Source: an uncultured Chthonomonas sp. (GTDB lineage: Bacteria; Armatimonadota; Chthonomonadetes; Chthonomonadales; Chthonomonadaceae). From it: DNA of 63,917 bases. A program made the translations under genes and the position numbers. Shown here one piece after another: positions 22,433 through 32,920 of the stretch. The notes below the pieces were generated by a model, which did not search any database, was not told the DNA's origin, and saw only the letters and a program-made list of their open reading frames with translations. Numbering within the stretch: position 1 is the stretch's first letter; each line of letters starts with the position of its first letter. The stretch covers positions 1 through 63,917 of the forward strand of contig CAIONQ010000135.1 in NCBI GenBank assembly GCA_903859705.1, in the 5' to 3' direction.

Positions 22433-22699
22433 ATGCCTACCGATACGGTAAAGGTCAAAGTCATCGTAACACTCAAACCGACGCTCCTGGATGCACAGGG
22501 ACGCGTGGTAAAGAGCGCTCTTCATTCGCTTGGGTACAGCGCTGTTAATCAAGTGCGCATTGGAAAGTACATGGAGCTTGAGATTTCGCGCGCCACTGCA
22601 GGCGATGCGGCCGCTCTCGATGCAACTGTAAAAGAGATGTGCGACAGGCTGCTTGTAAACCCGGTGATCGAAAACTACAGCTTCGAGGTGACCGAATGA
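22433..22699 (+). CDS. purS: Phosphoribosylformylglycinamidine synthase subunit PurS
   Basis: The 88-residue PurS subunit, which bridges PurL and PurQ in the three-part FGAM synthase of purine synthesis. Typical features are [27 protein letters not shown] near the N-terminus and the ELEI strand. A helix with [17 protein letters not shown] follows. A good ribosome site (AAGGAG) precedes it. Its stop overlaps the purQ start in an ATGA arrangement, so the two are translationally coupled, matching their one-to-one assembly. Confidence 0.93.
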
Positions 22700-23436
22700 G
22701 CTCCGTAGCGCCTGCCATTAACACCGGAGCGCGCCCGCGTTTCGCAGTACTCAGGTTCCCGGGATCCAACTGCGACCAAGATGCCTACTTCACTGTGAAA
22801 GATGTTCTGGGTTGCCCGGTGGATTACGTTTGGCACCAGGAGACGTCTCTTGCAGGCTTTGATGTGGTTCTGGTACCCGGCGGATTTTCTTATGGCGACT
22901 ATCTGCGAACCGGTGCCGTTGCACGCTTCGCCCCGATCATGGATGCGGCTATTGCGCATGCAGAAAATGGCGGTCTGGTGATTGGGATCTGCAACGGCTT
23001 TCAGATTCTGTGCGAAGCTGGATTGTTGCCAGGTGCTCTCGTTCGCAACCGTGATTGTAAGTTTCTGTGCAAATACGTTGGACTGCGCGTAGAAAACAAC
23101 ACGACGCCGTTTACCACAGAATACTCTGCTGGCCAGATAATCCAGATTCCCATTGCACATGGGGAAGGATGTTATGTGTGCGATGAGGCCACTGAGGCAG
23201 AGTTACAAGCCTCCGGACGAATTCTCTTCCGCTATGTGGATGGAGATGGCAACCCAACGCTGGAAGGGAACCCCAACGGAAGCCAATCCAACATTGCTGG
23301 CATTGCGAATGCAAAGTTCAATGTGATGGGTATGATGCCGCATCCTGAGCGTGCGAGCGAAAAAATTCTTGGTACTGCCGATGGCCGTGCCATATTCGAA
23401 TCCATCGTGAAACACGCTATGAAAACTCTGGCCTGA
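22696..23436 (+). CDS. purQ: Phosphoribosylformylglycinamidine synthase subunit PurQ
   Basis: The 246-residue class I glutamine amidotransferase subunit that supplies ammonia to PurL. Residues visible are [11 protein letters not shown] at the N-terminus, [10 protein letters not shown], the nucleophile C99 in GICNGFQ, and MPHPER with the catalytic His near the C-terminus. Starting at 22696 gives the ATGA overlap with purS; longer in-frame starts would lie within purS. The insert with [16 protein letters not shown] is normal for the family. The partner PurL is encoded separately at 27829, about 4.4 kb away. Confidence 0.94.
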
Positions 23437-23476
23437 CAGGACAACGTCCAGGCAGCGCACACCGGAAAGGATCTCC

Positions 23477-24379
23477 ATGGCTTCTGCAGCAGCTCTGCTG
23501 TTATTTGGCATTGTCGCCATAGCAGGCACCCTTGCCTCACCCAACGCTGAGGCACAAAACCCCTCTGCCCCAATGCGACTCTGGGAAGGCGATGCACCGG
23601 GCTCTCATGGCAATGGCCCCGCAGATATCCCTACCATCACACTCTACCGCCCGGCAGCTGAGAAAGCCAATGGAGCGGCAGTAGTGGTATGCCCGGGCGG
23701 CGGCTACGGTGGGTTGGCAGATCATGAGGGCAAACCAATTGCGGAGTGGCTCAATTCGGTTGGAGTTACAGCGTTTGTGCTAAAGTACCGTCTGGGTTCC
23801 GCAGGGTATCGCCATCCGGTAGAAATTGGCGATGCACAGCGGGCAATCAGAACTGTACGCGCTCGAGCTAACGAATGGTCTATAGATCCGCATCGCATTG
23901 GCATTATTGGATTTTCTGCTGGTGGGCACCTTGCTTCCAGCACAGCCACACACTTCGATGATGGAAATGCTTCTGCAACAGATGCTGTAGACAAGGTTAG
24001 CTGCCGGCCGGACCTGGCCATCCTGTGTTACCCTGTTATCACAATGACCGATCCGTTCACACATGCGGGCTCCAGGGCAAATCTGCTGGGCACAACGCCC
24101 TCGCGCGAGCTGGTTGAGTTTATGTCCTCAGAAAAGCAGGTAACTCCAAAAACTCCACCCTGCTTCCTATTGCAAACTTCAGATGATGCGGTTGTTCCCA
24201 TGGAGAACGCACTCATGTTTGCACTGGCATGCCATAAGGCGGGCGTTCCCTGTGAACTACACATGTACGAACATGGCCCTCACGGCATAGGCCTTGGCGG
24301 CAACGACCCAATATGGTCCACCTGGCCCAAACTGTGCGCTGCCTGGATGGATAAGCGGGGTTTCTTCAAGAAGCCCTGA
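23477..24379 (+). CDS. Secreted alpha/beta-hydrolase esterase (acetylxylan esterase-like)
   Basis: A 300-residue protein with a signal peptide (ALLLFGIVAIAGTLASPNAEAQ) and an AAGGA ribosome site. The fold shows the oxyanion region VVCPGGGYGGLADHEGKP, the nucleophile elbow GIIGFSAGGHLAS, an acid in LLQTSDDAVVP and the catalytic His in YEHGPHGIGL. This pattern is that of the acetyl esterase/xylan esterase group that removes acyl groups from polysaccharides outside the cytoplasm. It follows purQ but is separated by 40 bases and is probably unrelated to purine synthesis. A terminator lies downstream. Confidence 0.82.
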   Translation: MASAAALLLFGIVAIAGTLASPNAEAQNPSAPMRLWEGDAPGSHGNGPADIPTITLYRPAAEKANGAAVVVCPGGGYGGLADHEGKPIAEWLNSVGVTAFVLKYRLGSAGYRHPVEIGDAQRAIRTVRARANEWSIDPHRIGIIGFSAGGHLASSTATHFDDGNASATDAVDKVSCRPDLAILCYPVITMTDPFTHAGSRANLLGTTPSRELVEFMSSEKQVTPKTPPCFLLQTSDDAVVPMENALMFALACHKAGVPCELHMYEHGPHGIGLGGNDPIWSTWPKLCAAWMDKRGFFKKP

Positions 24380-24414
24380 CCAACTGTTAATTCCGATTAA
24401 TATGCATGAATATG

Positions 24415-24454
24415 AAGAGCCGACTCACAGCAAAACCTGTGAGCCAGCTCTTTG
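24415..24454. terminator. Bidirectional hairpin between convergent genes
   Basis: AAGAGC at 24415-24420 pairs with GCTCTT at 24447-24452, and CTCACAG at 24424-24430 pairs with CTGTGAG at 24437-24443, giving a 13-pair stem with a symmetric 3x3 internal loop and a six-base apical loop. It separates the esterase (stop 24379) from the leftward HtrA-like gene (stop 24476). Confidence 0.7.
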
Positions 24455-24475
24455 TTAACCCAGATTCAAAACTGT

Positions 24476-26155
24476 TTAACGCTTATCCTGAGCTTGAATC
24501 GGCTTAGGGAACCTCGCTGGCCGCACCTCTGCATGCGTGCTGAGCGTAACCTTGTTTAACTGCGCCCCGCGCAGTACTTCAATCATAATTGGATCACCCG
24601 GTCTGGCCATCATAGATGCGATGCGCACATCAACTTCTTCGCGCGTTGGCCGGCCATTAATACTCACGATCTGATCCCCAAGCTGAATACCCGCTTTTAT
24701 AGCAGGAGAATCCGGGTACAGCCCGTTCACCTTAACTGTGCGTACGAGATCCAGCCTATCAGGCAGGGTCGAATGGGAAAACTGCGTGTTTACGCTAATG
24801 CCTATCCAACAATGCTGAGCGGGTTTGCCAGCCTTGAAATCGCCAATAATGGGCCGTGCAGCGTCTATTGGCATTGCATACCCGGCAACAACGGCTGCCG
24901 AACGAAAAAACGGGATTCCTGGAACGGCAGGTCCACGTTGCTGTGTTCCCGCCCCTGTTTCGGCCACCAAACGAGTATTGGCTCTATCTGTGGCTCCCCC
25001 GGCAGCCGGAGTAGTTTGTGGCGCACCGCCACGGAAGGTAAAAGCAGACATCGCCGAAGGCGTCCAATCCGTAACTGGTACCGCAACCACCATGCCCACT
25101 ACCTGCCCATTGGAGTTGAGGATGGGGGCACCACTGTTTCCAGGCACTACAGGCCCGGAAACCTGGAGAAGTGATGGGTAGAACCTGCGTCCAGAAAAAA
25201 TTCCATCAGAACGAACCCCTGAAATTGTTGAAAGAGCCACAGAGTTTACGCTGCCAGCCTGATTCCCAATACAAATAGCAAAATGCCCGGGCGCTACCAG
25301 CGCGCTCTCCCCGAGTAAAAGTGCAGGGATGTCGAGTTGACCATTTATCCTGAGTAAACCAATATTTGTTTCATTGTCTATGCCCAGCACGTGGGTTCGC
25401 ATTCGCTCGCCCGAATCTGTGATAACGACTGGCTCAGACATGCCGTCGAGCACATCGGCCGTCGTCAGAATATAGCCTTCGCCTATGCTAAATCCAGTGC
25501 CCACTCGAGGCGGATCAAAGTGTGCCGATTGTGTCTGTAGCTTCTGTCTGTCTGCTGTAAGAACGGCCTGTGCCTCCTGGCACTGGGTGGCGAGAACCGT
25601 TCGGGCTGTTAGGATGGGAGTTAGAGCCGAGCTGCCAGCACGGTGTACGGTAACAAATTGAGCATATTCCGCATCCACTTTGGCCTTGCGCGCGTTAAGA
25701 GCATCCAGGTAGCCCTGATCTACATCCACATTTAGCCGCGCAGCATCCGGGGTTTTGCCCAGATCCGCACGCAACGTTTCGATTTCTGTAATAACACCGC
25801 TGCGGGCTTTTGCAGCGGCGGCCATTGCCGGGCTGCCAGACTTACCAGTTTTGCCAAGCACAGCAATCTGCAAATCTGCATCGGCTCGGCGGCTGAGCGC
25901 ATCAATCAACTGGTGGCGAATTCCGCGTTTTCTTATTGAAAATGCAGCCTTCCAGATATCCTCCATCTCAATACTCCGGAGGTCCTCTATGGTAACCACA
26001 CCACGAGAGTTCTTTGCGGCAATTCCAGAAACCTGATTTTCAATCTGGCCAAGAATACCGCTGGCGCCATTATCATCCGCCTGCGCGCTCCATGCCGAGA
26101 AGGAGAGGCAAAGTGCGGCCACAGCCGCAACGGCAGAACGGGATAATATCACCAT
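24476..26155 (-). CDS. HtrA/DegP-like protein with PDZ domain, triad His and Asp lost
   Basis: A 559-residue exported protein (signal VAAVAALCLSFSAWSAQA). Residues 30-195 are helical and lysine/alanine-rich, perhaps a coiled coil. Residues 205-370 are a trypsin-like HtrA domain and residues 440-545 a PDZ domain (GLYPDSPAIKAGIQLGDQIV). Aligned with HtrA, the serine is kept (S341 in PGNSGAPIL). The His of the TNxHVV motif is Asp (D234 in LTTADVLDG), and the Asp of the TDLAVL motif is Asn (N264 in NETNIGLL). The enzyme is therefore probably inactive or highly atypical. Its start overlaps the anti-sigma stop by seven bases, placing it in an ECF sigma operon. A role as a sensor or chaperone of exported proteins is my inference. 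Confidence 0.8.
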   Translation of the reverse strand: MVILSRSAVAAVAALCLSFSAWSAQADDNGASGILGQIENQVSGIAAKNSRGVVTIEDLRSIEMEDIWKAAFSIRKRGIRHQLIDALSRRADADLQIAVLGKTGKSGSPAMAAAAKARSGVITEIETLRADLGKTPDAARLNVDVDQGYLDALNARKAKVDAEYAQFVTVHRAGSSALTPILTARTVLATQCQEAQAVLTADRQKLQTQSAHFDPPRVGTGFSIGEGYILTTADVLDGMSEPVVITDSGERMRTHVLGIDNETNIGLLRINGQLDIPALLLGESALVAPGHFAICIGNQAGSVNSVALSTISGVRSDGIFSGRRFYPSLLQVSGPVVPGNSGAPILNSNGQVVGMVVAVPVTDWTPSAMSAFTFRGGAPQTTPAAGGATDRANTRLVAETGAGTQQRGPAVPGIPFFRSAAVVAGYAMPIDAARPIIGDFKAGKPAQHCWIGISVNTQFSHSTLPDRLDLVRTVKVNGLYPDSPAIKAGIQLGDQIVSINGRPTREEVDVRIASMMARPGDPIMIEVLRGAQLNKVTLSTHAEVRPARFPKPIQAQDKR

Positions 26156-26949
26156 GGATGCAGATCCTCCGTACCTTCTGTAGCACCAGTAGTTCGGCTT
26201 GAGACAACATCGATCACATAACGGCGATTCTGCTCTTCATCGTTACCCGATGAAGCAGACTGAAGCACATAATCTGAGTGAAGTGCTTGCCTTGGGGCAC
26301 CGCCATCCGGATACTCCGAATCCTCCGTGGGTACAGGAGTACCAGTCGCCTGAGAGCGGTTACTGGCCATGCGTATATTTGCACGACGCGTTCCAGATAA
26401 CGACGGCCGTGGAGGTGCAGATCGAAGGCCAGGACCAGTGAAATTCGCGCCCGTTTGCAGATCTGCAATTCCGGATTGCGAGAGGCTTCGCTCATCTTCC
26501 GGCACGGCCAGGGCAACATCGCCTCCTGCCACCTTAAAGGGGTCGCCAGCACCTGGCAACTTCAGTTTGCCAAGATGCGCTCCGGGAGCAGCGGAACCGA
26601 GAGTCAAATCGGTGCGGGTGTTTATAAACATAAATACCGCAGAAGCACAGGCAGCCAGGGCAAGTGTTCCGCCACCTATGGCTCGGAACGAAACACGTTG
26701 ACGCCGCATACTAACATTTTCAACTCTGTTTGCCAGATCGCGCCATCCCAGCATTGAGGCAGGAAGCGCTTGCGTGCGCATCCCGTGCAGGCCAGAGCGC
26801 ATTGTATGCACGGCGGCTGCATGTTCTCGGCATGCCTCACACGAAGCAATGTGAGAGCGAATCTCGTTGACACGAGCTTCTGAGAGGCTTCCGCCTTCCA
26901 ACTCCCAAATCTGATTTTGTACTGTACGGCACTCGAACATTGAATTCAT
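26149..26949 (-). CDS. Transmembrane anti-sigma factor with zinc-finger domain
   Basis: A 266-residue protein. The N-terminal cytosolic anti-sigma domain has the zinc motif HxxxCxxC in RSHIASCEACREH (about residues 32-44). A single membrane helix follows at about residues 90-108 (GGGTLALAACASAVFMFI), then a 155-residue extracytoplasmic low-complexity region rich in Gly, Ser, Pro and Arg. The sigma factor gene ends only four bases upstream and the HtrA-like gene overlaps it downstream. Such proteins hold an ECF sigma factor at the membrane until a signal releases it. The outer region has no recognisable sensor domain. Confidence 0.85.
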   Translation of the reverse strand: MNSMFECRTVQNQIWELEGGSLSEARVNEIRSHIASCEACREHAAAVHTMRSGLHGMRTQALPASMLGWRDLANRVENVSMRRQRVSFRAIGGGTLALAACASAVFMFINTRTDLTLGSAAPGAHLGKLKLPGAGDPFKVAGGDVALAVPEDERSLSQSGIADLQTGANFTGPGLRSAPPRPSLSGTRRANIRMASNRSQATGTPVPTEDSEYPDGGAPRQALHSDYVLQSASSGNDEEQNRRYVIDVVSSRTTGATEGTEDLHPW

Positions 26950-26953
26950 TCGG

Positions 26954-27544
26954 TTACCCTCGAGCTCCCATCAGGGATGCTACTCGCTCTTTCAAGCTCT
27001 TTCTGGCGCGAAAGAGGCGCAGTTTGATGCTGGTACGTGTACACCTAAGCACCGCTGCAATTTCTTCGTAACTCAGGCCTTCGATCTCGTGGAGAACAAT
27101 AATTTCTCTCTGAGGGGCTGGCATACCGCGCAACGCTTTTGCAATTACGGCCTCCAGCTCTTTGCGCTCTACAATAGCCTGGGGGCTATCATCCGGGCTG
27201 GTAACGCCCATTTCATCTTCGCGCATGGTGGAATCATATGTAACCTTGCGCCTGTCCCAGGATTTAATCTTGTCCCGACACAGATTGCCACAAATTTTTA
27301 GAAGCCATGTTTGCAGGCTGGATTCGCTGCGGAAGGAACGGATGGCCTGATAGGCCTTTACAAATGTCTCTTGCTTTATATCGTCCGCATCGTCCCGGTT
27401 TCCGAGGATATGGTAGGCGTAACGAAACACCTGGCGCTCGTACCGGTCATAGACCTGTGCAAAGGCGTCCAGGTCTCCCGCTCTGCAGCGAGTAACCAGT
27501 TGATCTTCGGCAACCTGCATTGTCACCCCGTGACTGACAACCAT
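26954..27544 (-). CDS. ECF-type RNA polymerase sigma factor
   Basis: A 196-residue sigma-70 family protein with region 2 (AFAQVYDRYERQVFRYAYHILGNRDDADDIKQETFVKAY) and region 4 (LRGMPAPQREIIVLHEIEGLSYEEIAAVLRCTRTSIKLRLFRARKSL). Regions 1 and 3 are absent, as is normal for the extracytoplasmic-function class. The start at 27544 has AGGAGG about 12 bases upstream; an in-frame ATG at 27520 is an alternative. It heads the operon sigma, anti-sigma, HtrA-like, and probably controls it. It is divergent from purL. Confidence 0.92.
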   Translation of the reverse strand: MVVSHGVTMQVAEDQLVTRCRAGDLDAFAQVYDRYERQVFRYAYHILGNRDDADDIKQETFVKAYQAIRSFRSESSLQTWLLKICGNLCRDKIKSWDRRKVTYDSTMREDEMGVTSPDDSPQAIVERKELEAVIAKALRGMPAPQREIIVLHEIEGLSYEEIAAVLRCTRTSIKLRLFRARKSLKERVASLMGARG

Positions 27545-27828
27545 TGGGCTTCGCTATCCTCCTGCAAGGAATGACGAGCGAACCCTGTATCGCGTATCAC
27601 ACATTTAGAATCGACATTAATAACAGGTTTACCTGCCCAGATTCGCAGTGCGCACGCTCTTACCGTTTAATAGTGCATGACTCTTGTCTTCGTTTTGACC
27701 TGCAAGTCCCTTCACTTCAGCCTGCCTGATAGGCTATACTAAAGAGCAATTCGGCAGGATTGCAGACTGAGTTTCATGTCTTTTGAATGATGCCGGGCCG
27801 TTGTGGCGCGGCCTGGGAGTTGGTAATC

Positions 27829-30087
27829 TTGATTGACCCGAAGATGGTTCAAGAGATGGGCCTCAATGAGCGCGAGTATCAGCAGATACTGGATACGCTT
27901 AAAAGAGAGCCCACCGTCACCGAGCTCGGTATGTTTTCCGTTATGTGGTCTGAGCACTGCGGGTATAAGTATTCACGCCCCGTGCTTTCGTTGTTTAAGA
28001 ACTACAAGGCCGCACAGGAATCTGGAGCCCTCGAAAACGCGGGAGTTATCCCGCTCGACGATCAATTTGGAATCGTCTTCAAAGTTGAAAGCCACAACCA
28101 CCCTTCTGCAGTTGAGCCCTTTCAGGGTGCTGCCACCGGCGTGGGTGGTATTTTGCGCGATATCTTTACGATGGGCGCACGGCCGATAGCCAACCTCAAC
28201 TCACTCCGCTTTGGCCCGCTGGATGAGCCCCGCAACCGTTACCTCTTTGAGCACGTTGTTGCTGGTATCAGCCACTACGGCAACTGCGTGGGTGTGCCCA
28301 CCGTTGCTGGCGAAATTTACTTTAACCCCTGCTACTCGGGTAATCCACTTGTTAATGCGATGTCGGTAGGCGTTGTCGATCTGGATAAGATCGCTTCGGC
28401 GGCCGCATCTGGTGTAGGAAACCCGGTTATCTATGTCGGTAGCTCCACTGGTAAAGACGGCATTCACGGTGCCACATTTGCCAGCGTAGAGCTTGGGCCT
28501 GATAGCGAATCGAAACGACCCAATGTACAGATGGGTGATCCATTCCTTGAGAAGCTCCTGATAGAGGCCACTCTGGAAGCGCTTGCCAGCGGGCATGTAG
28601 TTGGAATTCAGGATATGGGCGCAGCCGGCCTCACCTGTTCCACATCTGAAACCGCTGCCAAGGCCAGCACGGGCATGGAGATTGATGTACGCAAGGTTCC
28701 CCTGCGTGAAGCAGACATGACCGCGTACGAAATCATGCTATCTGAAAGCCAGGAGCGCATGCTTTGCATCGCCAAAGCAGGTACCGAGCAGGCAGTAATC
28801 GATATCTTCAAGAAGTGGGAGCTTAACGCCGCTGTTGTTGGCTTTGTAACGGATGATGGACTGGTACGTATAAAGGATAATGGAGTTGTAGTTGCCGAAA
28901 TCCCGGCGAAGGCGCTTACCAATGAGTGCCCAACCTACTATCTGGAAACTGAAGAGCCTGCCTACATTGCGCAGGTTCAGGCATTCGACCTTGCATCCTT
29001 GCCAGAGCCAGAAGATTACGGGGATGTGCTTCTGAGCCTGCTTGATTGCCCTTCGATCGCATCTAAGGGCTGGGTAACAGACCAGTACGATAGCATGGTG
29101 CAAACGCAAACCGTACACTCTCCTGGTGCAGATGCAGCAATTCTAAGAATTCGCGGCAGCAAGAAGGGGATTGCTGTTAAGCTGGATGGCAACGGACGAT
29201 ATGGCTACCTCGATCCATTTGTCGGCGGCCAGATTGCAGTTGTAGAAGCAGCAAGAAACGTTGCATGCGTCGGCGCTCGCCCGGTTGCTGTAACAGATAA
29301 CCTGAACTTCGCTAACCCGGAGAAGCCTACAGGGTTCTGGCAGTTCCGCCGATCCGTTGAAGGCCTCGCCAGCGCTACCGAAGCATTTAACACGCCCGTT
29401 GTAAGTGGAAATGTTTCGTTCTACAACGAAACACCGGATGGCCCGATCTTCCCAACACCCACAATTGGCATGCTCGGAGTGCTGGATGATGTAAACCGAC
29501 GCTGTGGGGCCGCCTTCAGGCCAGATGGCGAAGGGGATCAGTTGGTACTGCTCACCGCATATGACGATCCAACCGGTGGACTTGGCGGAAGTGAATACCT
29601 CAACCTGCAGCACGGCGAACAAGCGGGCAAGCCCCCAATTGTAAACCTTGAGCAGGAAGTAAAGCTTACAGAGCTGCTCGTTTCTTGTATAGGTGAGGGC
29701 CTGTTTGCTTCCTGTCACGATGTGTCAGATGGTGGCCTGGCCGTGTGCCTGGCTGAAATGGCGATACTCAGCAGTGAAGGTGCGCTGGTGCTGCTGAACC
29801 CCGCAGACTTTGTAGACACTCCTTCTCACTCTGCACTGCTGTTTGGAGAGGCACAGGGCCGAGTTGTCGTTGCCTTGAGAACCGAAAAGCAATTCACTAA
29901 GCTGAAAGAGAAGGCTGCCGTGGCTGGAATTAAAGCCGCATGGATTGGCACTGTGGGTGGCGATGAACTGAGGATAGCAGTGGGGCCAGAAGTACTTACT
30001 GTGCATCCTGTTGCGGAACTGGCCAGAGTTTCTGACCAGGCCATTCCACGCAGAATGGAAACCAGAGAGCTCACTGAAAGGGCATAG
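27829..30087 (+). CDS. purL: Phosphoribosylformylglycinamidine synthase subunit PurL
   Basis: The 752-residue small-type PurL, the ATP-dependent ligase part of FGAM synthase, working with PurS and PurQ. The TTG at 27829 has GGGAG nine bases upstream and gives a normal N-terminus (IDPKMVQEMGLNEREYQQIL); an ATG at 27787 without ribosome site is the alternative. Signature stretches are MFSVMWSEHCGYKYSR with the active-site His, KVESHNHPSAVEPFQGAATG, GQIAVVEAARNVACVGA and the repeat half ending near DVSDGGLAVCLAEMA. A TATACT element at 27735-27740 may be its -10 box. A structured 170-base spacer separates it from purF. Confidence 0.94.
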   Translation: MIDPKMVQEMGLNEREYQQILDTLKREPTVTELGMFSVMWSEHCGYKYSRPVLSLFKNYKAAQESGALENAGVIPLDDQFGIVFKVESHNHPSAVEPFQGAATGVGGILRDIFTMGARPIANLNSLRFGPLDEPRNRYLFEHVVAGISHYGNCVGVPTVAGEIYFNPCYSGNPLVNAMSVGVVDLDKIASAAASGVGNPVIYVGSSTGKDGIHGATFASVELGPDSESKRPNVQMGDPFLEKLLIEATLEALASGHVVGIQDMGAAGLTCSTSETAAKASTGMEIDVRKVPLREADMTAYEIMLSESQERMLCIAKAGTEQAVIDIFKKWELNAAVVGFVTDDGLVRIKDNGVVVAEIPAKALTNECPTYYLETEEPAYIAQVQAFDLASLPEPEDYGDVLLSLLDCPSIASKGWVTDQYDSMVQTQTVHSPGADAAILRIRGSKKGIAVKLDGNGRYGYLDPFVGGQIAVVEAARNVACVGARPVAVTDNLNFANPEKPTGFWQFRRSVEGLASATEAFNTPVVSGNVSFYNETPDGPIFPTPTIGMLGVLDDVNRRCGAAFRPDGEGDQLVLLTAYDDPTGGLGGSEYLNLQHGEQAGKPPIVNLEQEVKLTELLVSCIGEGLFASCHDVSDGGLAVCLAEMAILSSEGALVLLNPADFVDTPSHSALLFGEAQGRVVVALRTEKQFTKLKEKAAVAGIKAAWIGTVGGDELRIAVGPEVLTVHPVAELARVSDQAIPRRMETRELTERA

Positions 30088-30095
30088 GCGGTCCC

Positions 30096-30245
30096 ATCCG
30101 CCGAGGCGCTGCCCGAGATCCGGGAACAGACGCTTCAGTAGACTGTGAGAGGCGGATACTGCGGACACACAATGTCCGGGTAACTACCGCCCGACTGTAG
30201 CCGTGCTTCGCAACAGCGAAGCACTCCGGGTGATCGCCCTAACTG
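30096..30245 (+). ncRNA. Candidate structured RNA with tandem hairpin units between purL and purF
   Basis: The 170-base spacer folds into ordered pairs. ATCCGCC at 30096-30102 pairs with GGCGGAT at 30151-30157, enclosing GAGGCG 30103-30108 with CGCTTC 30131-30136 and CCCG 30112-30115 with CGGG 30121-30124. Two hairpins follow (30162-30167 with 30173-30178; 30203-30211 with 30216-30224). Each is followed by TCCGGGT, a short spacer, GCCC and ACTG, and preceded by another ACTG, so the unit is repeated in tandem. It ends just at the purF ribosome site (30245-30250). I know no riboswitch class with this pattern; the ZTP class shares only fragments. It may be a regulatory leader for purF. Confidence 0.45.
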
Positions 30246-30257
30246 AGGAGCTAGTTG

Positions 30258-31826
30258 ATGTCTTACAATACGGACCCGCGTTCGGCTGCCGCTGCCCCAC
30301 ATCACCATTGCGGTTCAGGATCAGCCGTAATCTCCCCCAACGACGAATGGGAGCGGGATAATCCGAAAGAAGAGTGCGGGGTATTTGGAATCTATGCCCC
30401 GAAAGAAGAAGTAGCACGTGTTGCGTTTTTTGGACTGTTTGCACTTCAACATCGCGGACAGGAGAGCGCGGGGCTCGCAGTTAGCGATGGGGAGAAAATC
30501 AAGGTTCACAAAGCCATGGGGTTGGTAACCCAGGTTTTTGATGAAAAGGCAATTTTGGATCTCCCGGGTTCGTTAGCCATAGGGCATACTCGCTACTCAA
30601 CCACCGGTTCCAGTGTCCTATGCAATGCTCAGCCGCTAATTGGTACCTCTGCTGCAGGAGAAATCGCGGTAGCTCACAACGGAAACCTGGTGAACACAAA
30701 GGAACTCCGCGATGGCTTGCTGGCGCAAGGCGTTGAGTTTGAAACAACCAACGATAGTGAAGTAATTGCCCAACTGCTTGCACGCCACTACACCGGCTCG
30801 ATAGAAGAAGCCGTTGTTTCCGTAATGAAACAGCTGAAGGGCGCTTATTCCCTGGTTATTCTAACCAAAGATAAGATCATTGGCCTCCGAGATCCATACG
30901 GTATTCGACCATTGTGCATTGGAAAACTGGAAGGCGAGCAGTATGTGCTGGCCTCCGAATCGTGTGCACTGGTACCGGTTGGTGCACAGTTTGTACGAGA
31001 TGTTGAACCGGGTGAAGTGATCGTAATTGATAAGAATGGCCTGAGGGAGTTCCAGGCGATTCCTACCATCCGCAATGCAACATGCCTTTTCGAATTCATC
31101 TATTTTGCACGCCCGGATACAAACCTGTACGGCCGCTCGCTCCATGAATCCCGAAGAAAGATGGGATATGAGCTGGCAGCAGAGCACCCGTGCCCGGGAG
31201 CCGATGTGGTAATCCCCGTGCCGGATACCAGCATACCCGCAGCCATCGGGTATGCAGAGGCTTCCAAAATACGGTATGCCGAAGGCGTAATTAAGAACCG
31301 ATACATCCAGCGTACATTTATACAGCCAAGCCAGCACATGCGTGATCTTGGTGCACGCATGAAATACTCCCCACTTAAAGAAACCCTGGCAAACCGCCGG
31401 GTGGTAATGGTGGACGACTCCATAGTGCGTGGCACAACCACTGGAAAATTGGTAAAGATGCTGTTTGATGCGGGTGCCAGGGAAGTGCACGTACGTATTA
31501 CAGCGCCGCCTGTTAAGAACCCGTGCTACTACGGTATTGACATGGCGAACCAGAAGGAGCTTGTGGCTGCACACAAAACCGTTGAAGAGATCCGGAAAAT
31601 GATTGGGGCTACGTCCCTGGGTTATCTGTCTCTTGATGGAGTTGTAAGGGCCATAGGCATTAACAAAGATAAGTTCTGCCGGGCATGCTTCGATGGAAAG
31701 TATCCCATTACGGTTCCACCGGATGTTCGCAACTCTAAACTCATGCTTGAGGCAGAACGAGCGGCTGAAAATCCTAACCTGCGCGAAGGCGGCCCGGATG
31801 ATGGCAGCCCGGAATCAGCAGAATAG
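30258..31826 (+). CDS. purF: Amidophosphoribosyltransferase PurF with long N-terminal propeptide
   Basis: The 522-residue first enzyme of purine synthesis: glutamine plus PRPP gives phosphoribosylamine. The ATG at 30258 has GAGGAG seven bases upstream. The glutaminase nucleophile is C40 in EECGVFGI, so about 39 residues, including a histidine run (PHHHC), would have to be removed to free it; the Bacillus enzyme has a far shorter propeptide. The PRPP loop is VVMVDDSIVRGTTTGKL, and C-terminal FCRACFDGKYPI is part of the iron-sulfur ligand set of the oxygen-sensitive PurF type. It is followed by purM. Confidence 0.95.
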   Translation: MSYNTDPRSAAAAPHHHCGSGSAVISPNDEWERDNPKEECGVFGIYAPKEEVARVAFFGLFALQHRGQESAGLAVSDGEKIKVHKAMGLVTQVFDEKAILDLPGSLAIGHTRYSTTGSSVLCNAQPLIGTSAAGEIAVAHNGNLVNTKELRDGLLAQGVEFETTNDSEVIAQLLARHYTGSIEEAVVSVMKQLKGAYSLVILTKDKIIGLRDPYGIRPLCIGKLEGEQYVLASESCALVPVGAQFVRDVEPGEVIVIDKNGLREFQAIPTIRNATCLFEFIYFARPDTNLYGRSLHESRRKMGYELAAEHPCPGADVVIPVPDTSIPAAIGYAEASKIRYAEGVIKNRYIQRTFIQPSQHMRDLGARMKYSPLKETLANRRVVMVDDSIVRGTTTGKLVKMLFDAGAREVHVRITAPPVKNPCYYGIDMANQKELVAAHKTVEEIRKMIGATSLGYLSLDGVVRAIGINKDKFCRACFDGKYPITVPPDVRNSKLMLEAERAAENPNLREGGPDDGSPESAE

Positions 31827-31873
31827 ATTACATTTCCTCCGGCTGGCACCCAGCCGTACTGGAGACACAGATA

Positions 31874-32920
31874 GTGACTGAAGACCGAATAACTTACCGC
31901 GATGCGGGAGTAGATATCGATGCCGCAAACGAAGCTGTAATGCGGATGCGTGAGCATATTCGCTCCACCTTTACACCGGGTGTGCTTACGGATGTAGGCA
32001 GTTTTGGAGGCATGTTTTCGCTGGCAGGGCTCTCGAACTATCAGAACCCGGTGCTCGTATCCAGCATAGATGGTGTGGGCACCAAGCTCAAGGTGGCCGT
32101 AATGGCCGGCAAGCATGATACCATCGGCAAAGACCTCGTCAACCATTGCGTCAACGACATACTGGTGCAAGGCGCCCGGCCACTGTTCTTCCTGGATTAC
32201 TTTGCAACGGGCAAACTGGCACCGCAAGTTGTGGTGGATGTAGTAAAGGGCCTCTCTGAAGGCTGTCGCGAGTCGGGCTGTGCACTTATCGGTGGCGAAA
32301 CGGCAGAAATGCCTGGCCTTTACGCGTACGGCGACTATGACCTGGCTGGCGCAATAGTGGGCATTGTAGACCGCGACAGGATTGTGAATGGCAGTTCCGT
32401 AGAGCCCGGCGATACCGTTATTGGCATTGCCTCCAGCGGCCTGCACACCAATGGGTATTCACTGGCGCGCCGCATTCTTCTGGAAGCTGGCGATCGATCC
32501 TACAATATCTTCGATCATATTCCGTCCATTGGCAGAACACTTGCCGAAGAGCTCCTTGCGCCGCATCGCTGCTATGCCCCTACGGTGCTGCCCCTGCTTG
32601 AAGAGTTCGATATCAAAGCAATGGCGCATATTACTGGCGGCGGTTTCTACGATAACATCCCGCGTGTTTTGCCCGCCAATTGCAGCGTTACTATCGAGCG
32701 ACGCACCTGGCCCATTCCGCCTATCTTCCACCTTATTCAGGAGCGTGGAGGTGTACCGGAGCCCGAGATGTACCGCACGTTTAATATGGGAGTAGGCTTC
32801 ATACTCATCGTCTCAGCCGATCAGGCGCCTCTAATTGCACATCGTTTGAACGAAGCCGGAGAATCTGCGTATATTCTTGGTAACGTACATCGCGGTGTTC
32901 AGGAAGTGGATATCGTATAA
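31874..32920 (+). CDS. purM: Phosphoribosylformylglycinamidine cyclo-ligase PurM
   Basis: The 348-residue AIR synthetase that closes the imidazole ring with ATP after FGAM synthase. It starts at GTG with GGAG nine bases upstream. Family signatures are YRDAGVDIDAANEAVMRMR, SIDGVGTKLKVAV, GKDLVNHCVNDILVQGA, LIGGETAEMPG and the C-terminal HITGGGFYDNIPRVLP. The length is normal. It follows purF with 47 bases between, and a HAD phosphatase gene begins 16 bases after its stop, so all three are probably one transcript. Confidence 0.95.
   Translation: MTEDRITYRDAGVDIDAANEAVMRMREHIRSTFTPGVLTDVGSFGGMFSLAGLSNYQNPVLVSSIDGVGTKLKVAVMAGKHDTIGKDLVNHCVNDILVQGARPLFFLDYFATGKLAPQVVVDVVKGLSEGCRESGCALIGGETAEMPGLYAYGDYDLAGAIVGIVDRDRIVNGSSVEPGDTVIGIASSGLHTNGYSLARRILLEAGDRSYNIFDHIPSIGRTLAEELLAPHRCYAPTVLPLLEEFDIKAMAHITGGGFYDNIPRVLPANCSVTIERRTWPIPPIFHLIQERGGVPEPEMYRTFNMGVGFILIVSADQAPLIAHRLNEAGESAYILGNVHRGVQEVDIV

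Follow-up and report, generated by a model that had tools for sequence, protein, structure and literature searches.

A conserved, probable HtrA-like pseudoprotease encoded in ECF sigma factor operons of Armatimonadota and Poribacteria, and its possible role at the anti-sigma factor

According to the sigmaE paradigm, misfolded proteins are sensed by an HtrA protease, which is also the first to cut the anti-sigma factor (DegS/RseA/RseB, PMC8103513). What, then, might an HtrA-like protein do in a sigma factor operon when two of its three catalytic residues have been replaced? The question is raised by three genes in a 63,917-nucleotide stretch of DNA from an uncultured Chthonomonas sp. (the window), which the original prediction described as an operon at 24476–27544 for an ECF sigma factor, a zinc anti-sigma factor and an HtrA-like protein, with a seven-base overlap between the latter two genes. 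Frames and coordinates of the operon proved exact, and the overlap was found at 26149–26155.

The operon and its HtrA-like protein

26954–27544, minus strand: ECF sigma factor, 196 residues (Pfam Sigma70_r2 and r4_2, TIGR02937)
26149–26949, minus strand: membrane anti-sigma factor, 266 residues (Pfam zf-HC2)
24476–26155, minus strand: HtrA-like pseudoprotease, 559 residues (Pfam Trypsin_2 and PDZ)
26149–26155, unstranded: overlap of 7 nt, ATGGTGA, read as ...W-stop in the anti-sigma gene and as M-V... in the HtrA-like gene
25454–25456, minus strand: Asp234 codon GAT, catalytic His position (alignments to HtrA sequences)
25364–25366, minus strand: Asn264 codon AAT, catalytic Asp position (alignments)
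25133–25135, minus strand: Ser341 codon AGT in G-N-S-G-A-P, catalytic Ser position (alignments)

The sigma factor carries both Sigma70 region 2 and region 4_2 (Pfam/NCBIfam), as members of the ECF class do. The anti-sigma factor scores 26.5 bits with zf-HC2 (Pfam cut-off 22.2) and has the features of a ZAS protein: the motif H33-x3-C37-x2-C40 (HIASCEAC, residues 33–40), a single transmembrane helix at ~91–112, supported by hydropathy, and a gene beside that of an ECF sigma factor. Its AlphaFold2 model consists of a helical zinc domain and the membrane helix; the extracytoplasmic tail, residues 113–266, has a pLDDT of about 50 and is predicted to be disordered. The overlap with the HtrA-like gene is consistent with translational coupling of the two genes. 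It was computed in the window and in the operons L028, L029, L031, L032 and L035, is found in L030 too if the second Met is the start, and is the same in L033 by coordinates. Convergent with the operon is an alpha/beta-hydrolase-like ORF (23477–24379, plus strand), one copy of which, 70% identical, adjoins the operon of L028, in the same genus, and another, 53% identical, lies upstream of an operon of the second subfamily described below (L046). Operon and hydrolase lie between ORFs that we take, by eye, to be purS/purQ and purL/purF/purM, so that the region 22433–32920 is presumably a purine gene cluster.

The HtrA-like protein has a signal-peptide-like N-terminus and matches Trypsin_2 (82.6 bits) and PDZ in Pfam. 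The order of domains, a trypsin-like fold and then a PDZ, is that of the HtrA/DegP (S1C) family; the His-Asp-Ser catalytic triad of that family is absent, its place being taken by D234, N264 and S341. The scores with the NCBIfam models of the Do-family endopeptidases (degP_htrA_DO, 124 bits, cut-off 416.2) and of DegS (73.2 bits, cut-off 422.95) are far below their cut-offs. The triad positions were set by alignment to the PDB sequences of MucD, DegP-like and HhoA proteins and to E. coli DegQ and DegS, and these alignments give the same residues as the original prediction, namely Asp for His, Asn for Asp and a retained Ser. In an alignment of 19 sequences (A1), the invariant columns include N264, S341 and G339, the Gly at the oxyanion position; A1 has no His, invariant or nearly so, that could belong to a di-histidine metal site of the MamO type.

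The AlphaFold2 model (mean pLDDT 75.6) has a helical insert at 59–208, the trypsin fold at 218–357, a disordered loop at 360–420 and the PDZ at 422–538. The large insert is present in only part of the subfamily to which the window protein belongs. The closest solved structures are all active HtrAs, including Rv0983 (VIA-align Z 31.5, rmsd 2.8, 276 residues aligned), HtrA1 Rv1223, DegP, DegQ, AlgW, MucD and DegS, with Z between 26 and 31 for DegP, DegQ, DegS, AlgW and MucD. The sequence W-I-G-I at 450–453 is, as read by eye, presumably the usual carboxylate loop of the PDZ. The loop following the Ser strand is 37–163 residues long in most of the full-length homologues with the same replacements, as against 15–29 in most active HtrAs.

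Conservation of the altered triad in two phyla

The window genome falls with the Chthonomonadaceae of the Armatimonadota, to judge from the named genomes nearest to it. Homologues were sought in relatives and in 291 genomes of this phylum. All 28 homologues in the clade, from 24 genomes of two families, have D or E at the His site, N at the Asp site and S at the Ser site (D/E-N-S). The anti-sigma gene adjoins the HtrA-like gene on its upstream side in every one of these loci, and the sigma gene is also present in 27, the contig of the 28th (L033) stopping before that point. Among the listed genomes of f2 and f3, two further families of this order, no match was obtained at E 1e-40, and a contig-level scan with the HtrA-like protein as query found no relative. 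The Chthonomonadaceae have two paralogous subfamilies, A (the window type) and B, which occur together in G004, G007, G013 and G015. Other relatives in ECF sigma operons have the triads N-D-S, D-G-P and E-N-P, and the Ser has been lost in sister lineages, being P in L090 and L094 and N in L086 (triad S-N-N, locus at the end of a contig). The window genome (G000) also encodes four HtrAs with an intact H-D-S triad. One belongs to a parallel ECF operon of sigma, anti-sigma and HtrA genes (L047, 5885–8762, contig C17), the anti-sigma factor of which is without the tail motif considered below.

Homologues in the same gene order that kept His and Asp would, by the original prediction, have pointed to a mutation in one genome or to a sequencing error. 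The comparison was made and the substitutions are common to all 28 members, which supports a maintained pseudoprotease rather than a single mutation, an error or decay. The ratio dN/dS of 0.08–0.15 between close pairs of the HtrA-like genes leads to the same conclusion of maintenance by purifying selection, and with the intact frames bears out the early view that this is not simple decay. Nearly all the genomes are metagenome-assembled, which is what makes an error or a chimeric assembly worth considering; however, the same substitutions recur in many independent assemblies, including the single-contig 3.4-Mb genome G003, and we regard error, chimera and decay alike as refuted.

In a tree of the Armatimonadota HtrAs calculated without the three triad columns and with E. 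coli DegQ and DegS included, the proteins with defective triads from the sigma operons separate from the H-D-S HtrAs at 100/99; two unusual members, H-E-S and S-D-S, also fall on the active side. The sigma factors of the pseudo-HtrA operons separate from those of the active-HtrA operons at 100/100. Since the two trees split alike, the operon has been inherited as a whole and not gene by gene. Some end branches are long, and long-branch attraction may have affected the deep placements.

The same order of sigma, anti-sigma and HtrA-like genes is found in Poribacteria. These operons came solely from a direct search of Poribacteria genomes; a scan based on the sigma factor reached this phylum too, and around the sigma genes that it found there is no HtrA-like gene. 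The His is missing from all 35 of the sigma-linked HtrA-like ORFs and replaced by F, G, A or L, whereas 14 of the 17 unlinked ones are H-D-S; these are counts of matched loci and not of a random sample of HtrAs, the query profile having been built from pseudo forms. In the F-type sequences (TTTF[DE]) the His column may shift by one residue, with no His either way. The sigma-linked copies mostly keep Asp and Ser, the Ser being T (two) or N (four) in six of them. Two Poribacteria loci have HtrA-like ORFs with more degenerate triads, E-G-G (L242, 1432–2949) and L-G-G (L260, 1312–2667), and the sigma gene was not found in the stretch examined of L260. In a joint tree, a branch with 94/96 support divides the 23 active HtrAs of both phyla and E. 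coli from the pseudo forms; since the Armatimonadota and Poribacteria pseudo forms are grouped together, a common origin is possible. In Chloroflexota and Bacillota (about 800 genomes), the best-ranked 51 HtrA-like ORFs are all H-D-S, in a search with a mixed profile (A4) that also favours active HtrAs and below the top ranks of which pseudo forms could remain.

In both phyla the general-base His is missing from all operon members and is replaced in different ways, and normal serine-protease activity has very probably been lost from these proteins.

The anti-sigma tail and a predicted promoter of the operon

26212–26220, minus strand: conserved tail motif Y244-V-I of the anti-sigma factor (column conservation)
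26263–26271, minus strand: upstream second copy of the motif, YVL, anti-sigma residues 227–229
27573–27599, minus strand: predicted promoter of the sigma factor, TGATACGC-N15-CGTC, upstream of the sigma gene (activity presumed from the motif)

Across 22 aligned anti-sigma factors Tyr244 is the sole nearly invariant extracytoplasmic column. The pattern [YF][VI][ILMV] occurs within the last 40 residues in 27 of the 28 Armatimonadota pseudo-HtrA operons (0.83 expected from shuffling), in none of the seven anti-sigma factors of active-HtrA operons and in none of 15 further zf-HC2 proteins encoded by G000 and G001, some of which are perhaps not anti-sigma factors. The Fisher p of 1.2e-6 overstates the independence of these sequences, as they are related by descent. 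In Poribacteria, all 33 anti-sigma factors have a similar motif, Y[VITM]L, which was widened after the sequences had been seen.

The extreme C-termini, which a PDZ might bind, are hydrophobic in operons where the residue is not dictated by a gene overlap. The last residue is Tyr in all nine subfamily B operons, most Poribacteria tails end in ...GGL, and the anti-sigma factors of the active-HtrA operons end in R, R, R, P, P, H and R. Those of family f6 end in Glu, unlike the usual PDZ ligand. The C-terminal Trp of subfamily A was set aside as evidence for PDZ binding, since the gene overlap imposes it in part, ATGGTGA encoding both W-stop and M-V. The anti-sigma factors at L090 (5178–5996) and L094 (5162–5755) end in HVYSF and HVFSF, similar to the YxF ligand that the DegS PDZ binds; in the HtrA-like proteins paired with them, the Ser is replaced by Pro.

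Within the family, a bipartite motif stands before most sigma genes; its form is TGATACGC-N14/15-CGTC in subfamily A, and in subfamily B it is GATAAC-N-CGTC. The form GATACG(C/T)-N14/15-CGTC lies 51–78 nt before the sigma start in six of the eight subfamily A operons in which the upstream region was read, and the other two (L029 and L030) have variants read by eye. In six genomes searched with the strict A pattern, the sigma operon is the only place where it stands just upstream of a gene, which suggests that the sigma factor controls its own operon and has a narrow set of targets. A wide regulon was considered and rejected: strict matches elsewhere are no commoner than those of a reversed control and fall within or across ORFs or at contig edges, and we therefore propose control of its own operon only.

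A proposed capping role and its place among known systems

The lasting link of the pseudoprotease to one type of anti-sigma factor with a shared tail motif would be best explained by binding. We propose, with a probability of about one half, that the dead HtrA grips the tail of its cognate anti-sigma factor with protease fold and PDZ, leaves it uncut and so gates its degradation by other proteases. Exported to the extracytoplasmic side, it would take the C-terminal residues of the anti-sigma factor in its PDZ and the Y-V-I strand in its dead protease groove, a two-point hold like that of active HtrAs on their substrates. Being unable to cut, it would cap the tail and shield it from active site-1 and site-2 proteases. 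Under envelope stress, misfolded proteins would compete for PDZ and groove and displace the cap, the uncapped anti-sigma factor would be degraded, and the freed sigma factor would switch on its own operon, remaking the cap in a negative feedback. The cutting could be done by other proteases of the same genome, which has, besides its four H-D-S HtrAs, an RseP-type site-2 protease scoring above the curated cut-off.

Some observations sit uneasily with the capping role. Tail binding is deduced from conservation, and the tail motif might just as well mark the point at which an active protease cuts. A protein that only binds would have no need of the Ser, yet all 28 D/E-N-S members retain it, and among the C-termini the Trp of subfamily A is no independent evidence and the Glu of f6 is atypical of a PDZ ligand. 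D/E-N-S could instead be a rearranged catalytic centre in which a carboxylate serves as general base, by analogy with the Ser-Glu-Asp sedolisins, and that the protein itself cuts the tail. The constancy of the three residues over a large divergence and the invariant G339 are in keeping with this; however, sister lineages with the same type of operon have lost the Ser (to Pro, Asn or Thr) or have G, A, L or F at the His position, and the Ser strand is followed by an enlarged loop, so that we hold a rearranged centre to be very improbable.

The dead HtrA could also bind the tail in order to deliver it to an active HtrA, or form hetero-oligomers with such an HtrA and activate it, promoting release of the sigma factor. 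The four H-D-S HtrAs of the genome could supply the partner, the tail motif may be read as a cleavage site, and there is a precedent in MamO: proteolysis that depends on MamE requires MamO to be present but does not require its catalytic triad (PMC4794232). An adaptor of this kind is nevertheless unlikely, since the operon has no dedicated active partner and the active paralogue of the C17 operon has its own anti-sigma factor. The protein might instead be an output of the response, a periplasmic holdase induced by stress together with the sigma factor and without a signalling part. The chaperone activity of inactive HtrAs is already known, such variants still protecting cells and suppressing aggregation (PMC11642142), and operon position and promoter would make the dead HtrA a target of the sigma factor; yet a holdase leaves unexplained both the tail motif, which is absent from active-HtrA operons, and the tight tie to the sigma operon, and it seems improbable. 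Cap, adaptor and direct sensor all fit the evidence that the present sequences provide. The original prediction that the pseudoprotease regulates sigma release is in accord with the conserved operon, the motif at its own promoter and the tail motif, and the regulatory role itself is to be read as a proposal.

Together, tail motif and dead protease in Armatimonadota and Poribacteria suggest an alarm system for the cell envelope with a dead protease at its centre. More tentatively than the capping role, we suggest an old class of ECF systems, spread over at least two phyla, in which a dead HtrA is a dedicated receptor of the anti-sigma factor, reads the Tyr-hydrophobic motif and the C-terminus, and gates destruction in the place of DegS or RseB. 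Both ECF operons with HtrA genes and HtrA pseudoproteases, the latter from magnetosomes (PMC4794232), are already known; a pseudoprotease in an ECF operon was not found described in the open-licence literature searched. The HtrA of these operons has kept fold and PDZ, has consistently lost its catalytic residues and is tightly linked to a motif in the anti-sigma tail, a short peptide that can be tested directly. If the contact is real, sensing and cutting are split between two proteins, and it can be asked what PDZ and protease scaffold contribute to sigma control without catalysis.

Like MamO and the other magnetosome pseudoproteases, the protein is derived from HtrA and has lost catalysis while a function has been kept; MamO has a metal-binding di-His site and works in the formation of magnetite (PMC4794232), whereas here there is no such invariant His and the context is sigma control. 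With the E. coli DegS-RseA-sigmaE system it shares the HtrA fold with one PDZ as candidate sensor, the presumed periplasmic location, the ECF sigma factor and the membrane anti-sigma factor; it differs in the replaced His and Asp, in the HtrA gene lying inside the sigma operon, in the helical and loop inserts of the HtrA-like protein and in the tail motif of the anti-sigma factor. The proposed binding and protection of the periplasmic part of the anti-sigma factor would resemble the role of RseB in the sigmaE pathway, here played on a scaffold of the DegS type, although RseB belongs to another protein family and Pfam finds no RseB domain in the HtrA-like protein. Gene orders that bring ECF sigma factor, anti-sigma factor and HtrA together are those of sigE-rseA-htrA (Rv1221–1223) in M. 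tuberculosis and algU-muc-mucD in Pseudomonas. The structures of Rv1223, PepD and MucD are among the closest folds to the model; the HtrAs of those sigma operons are active proteases, whereas here H-D-S is retained in the parallel C17 operon alone.
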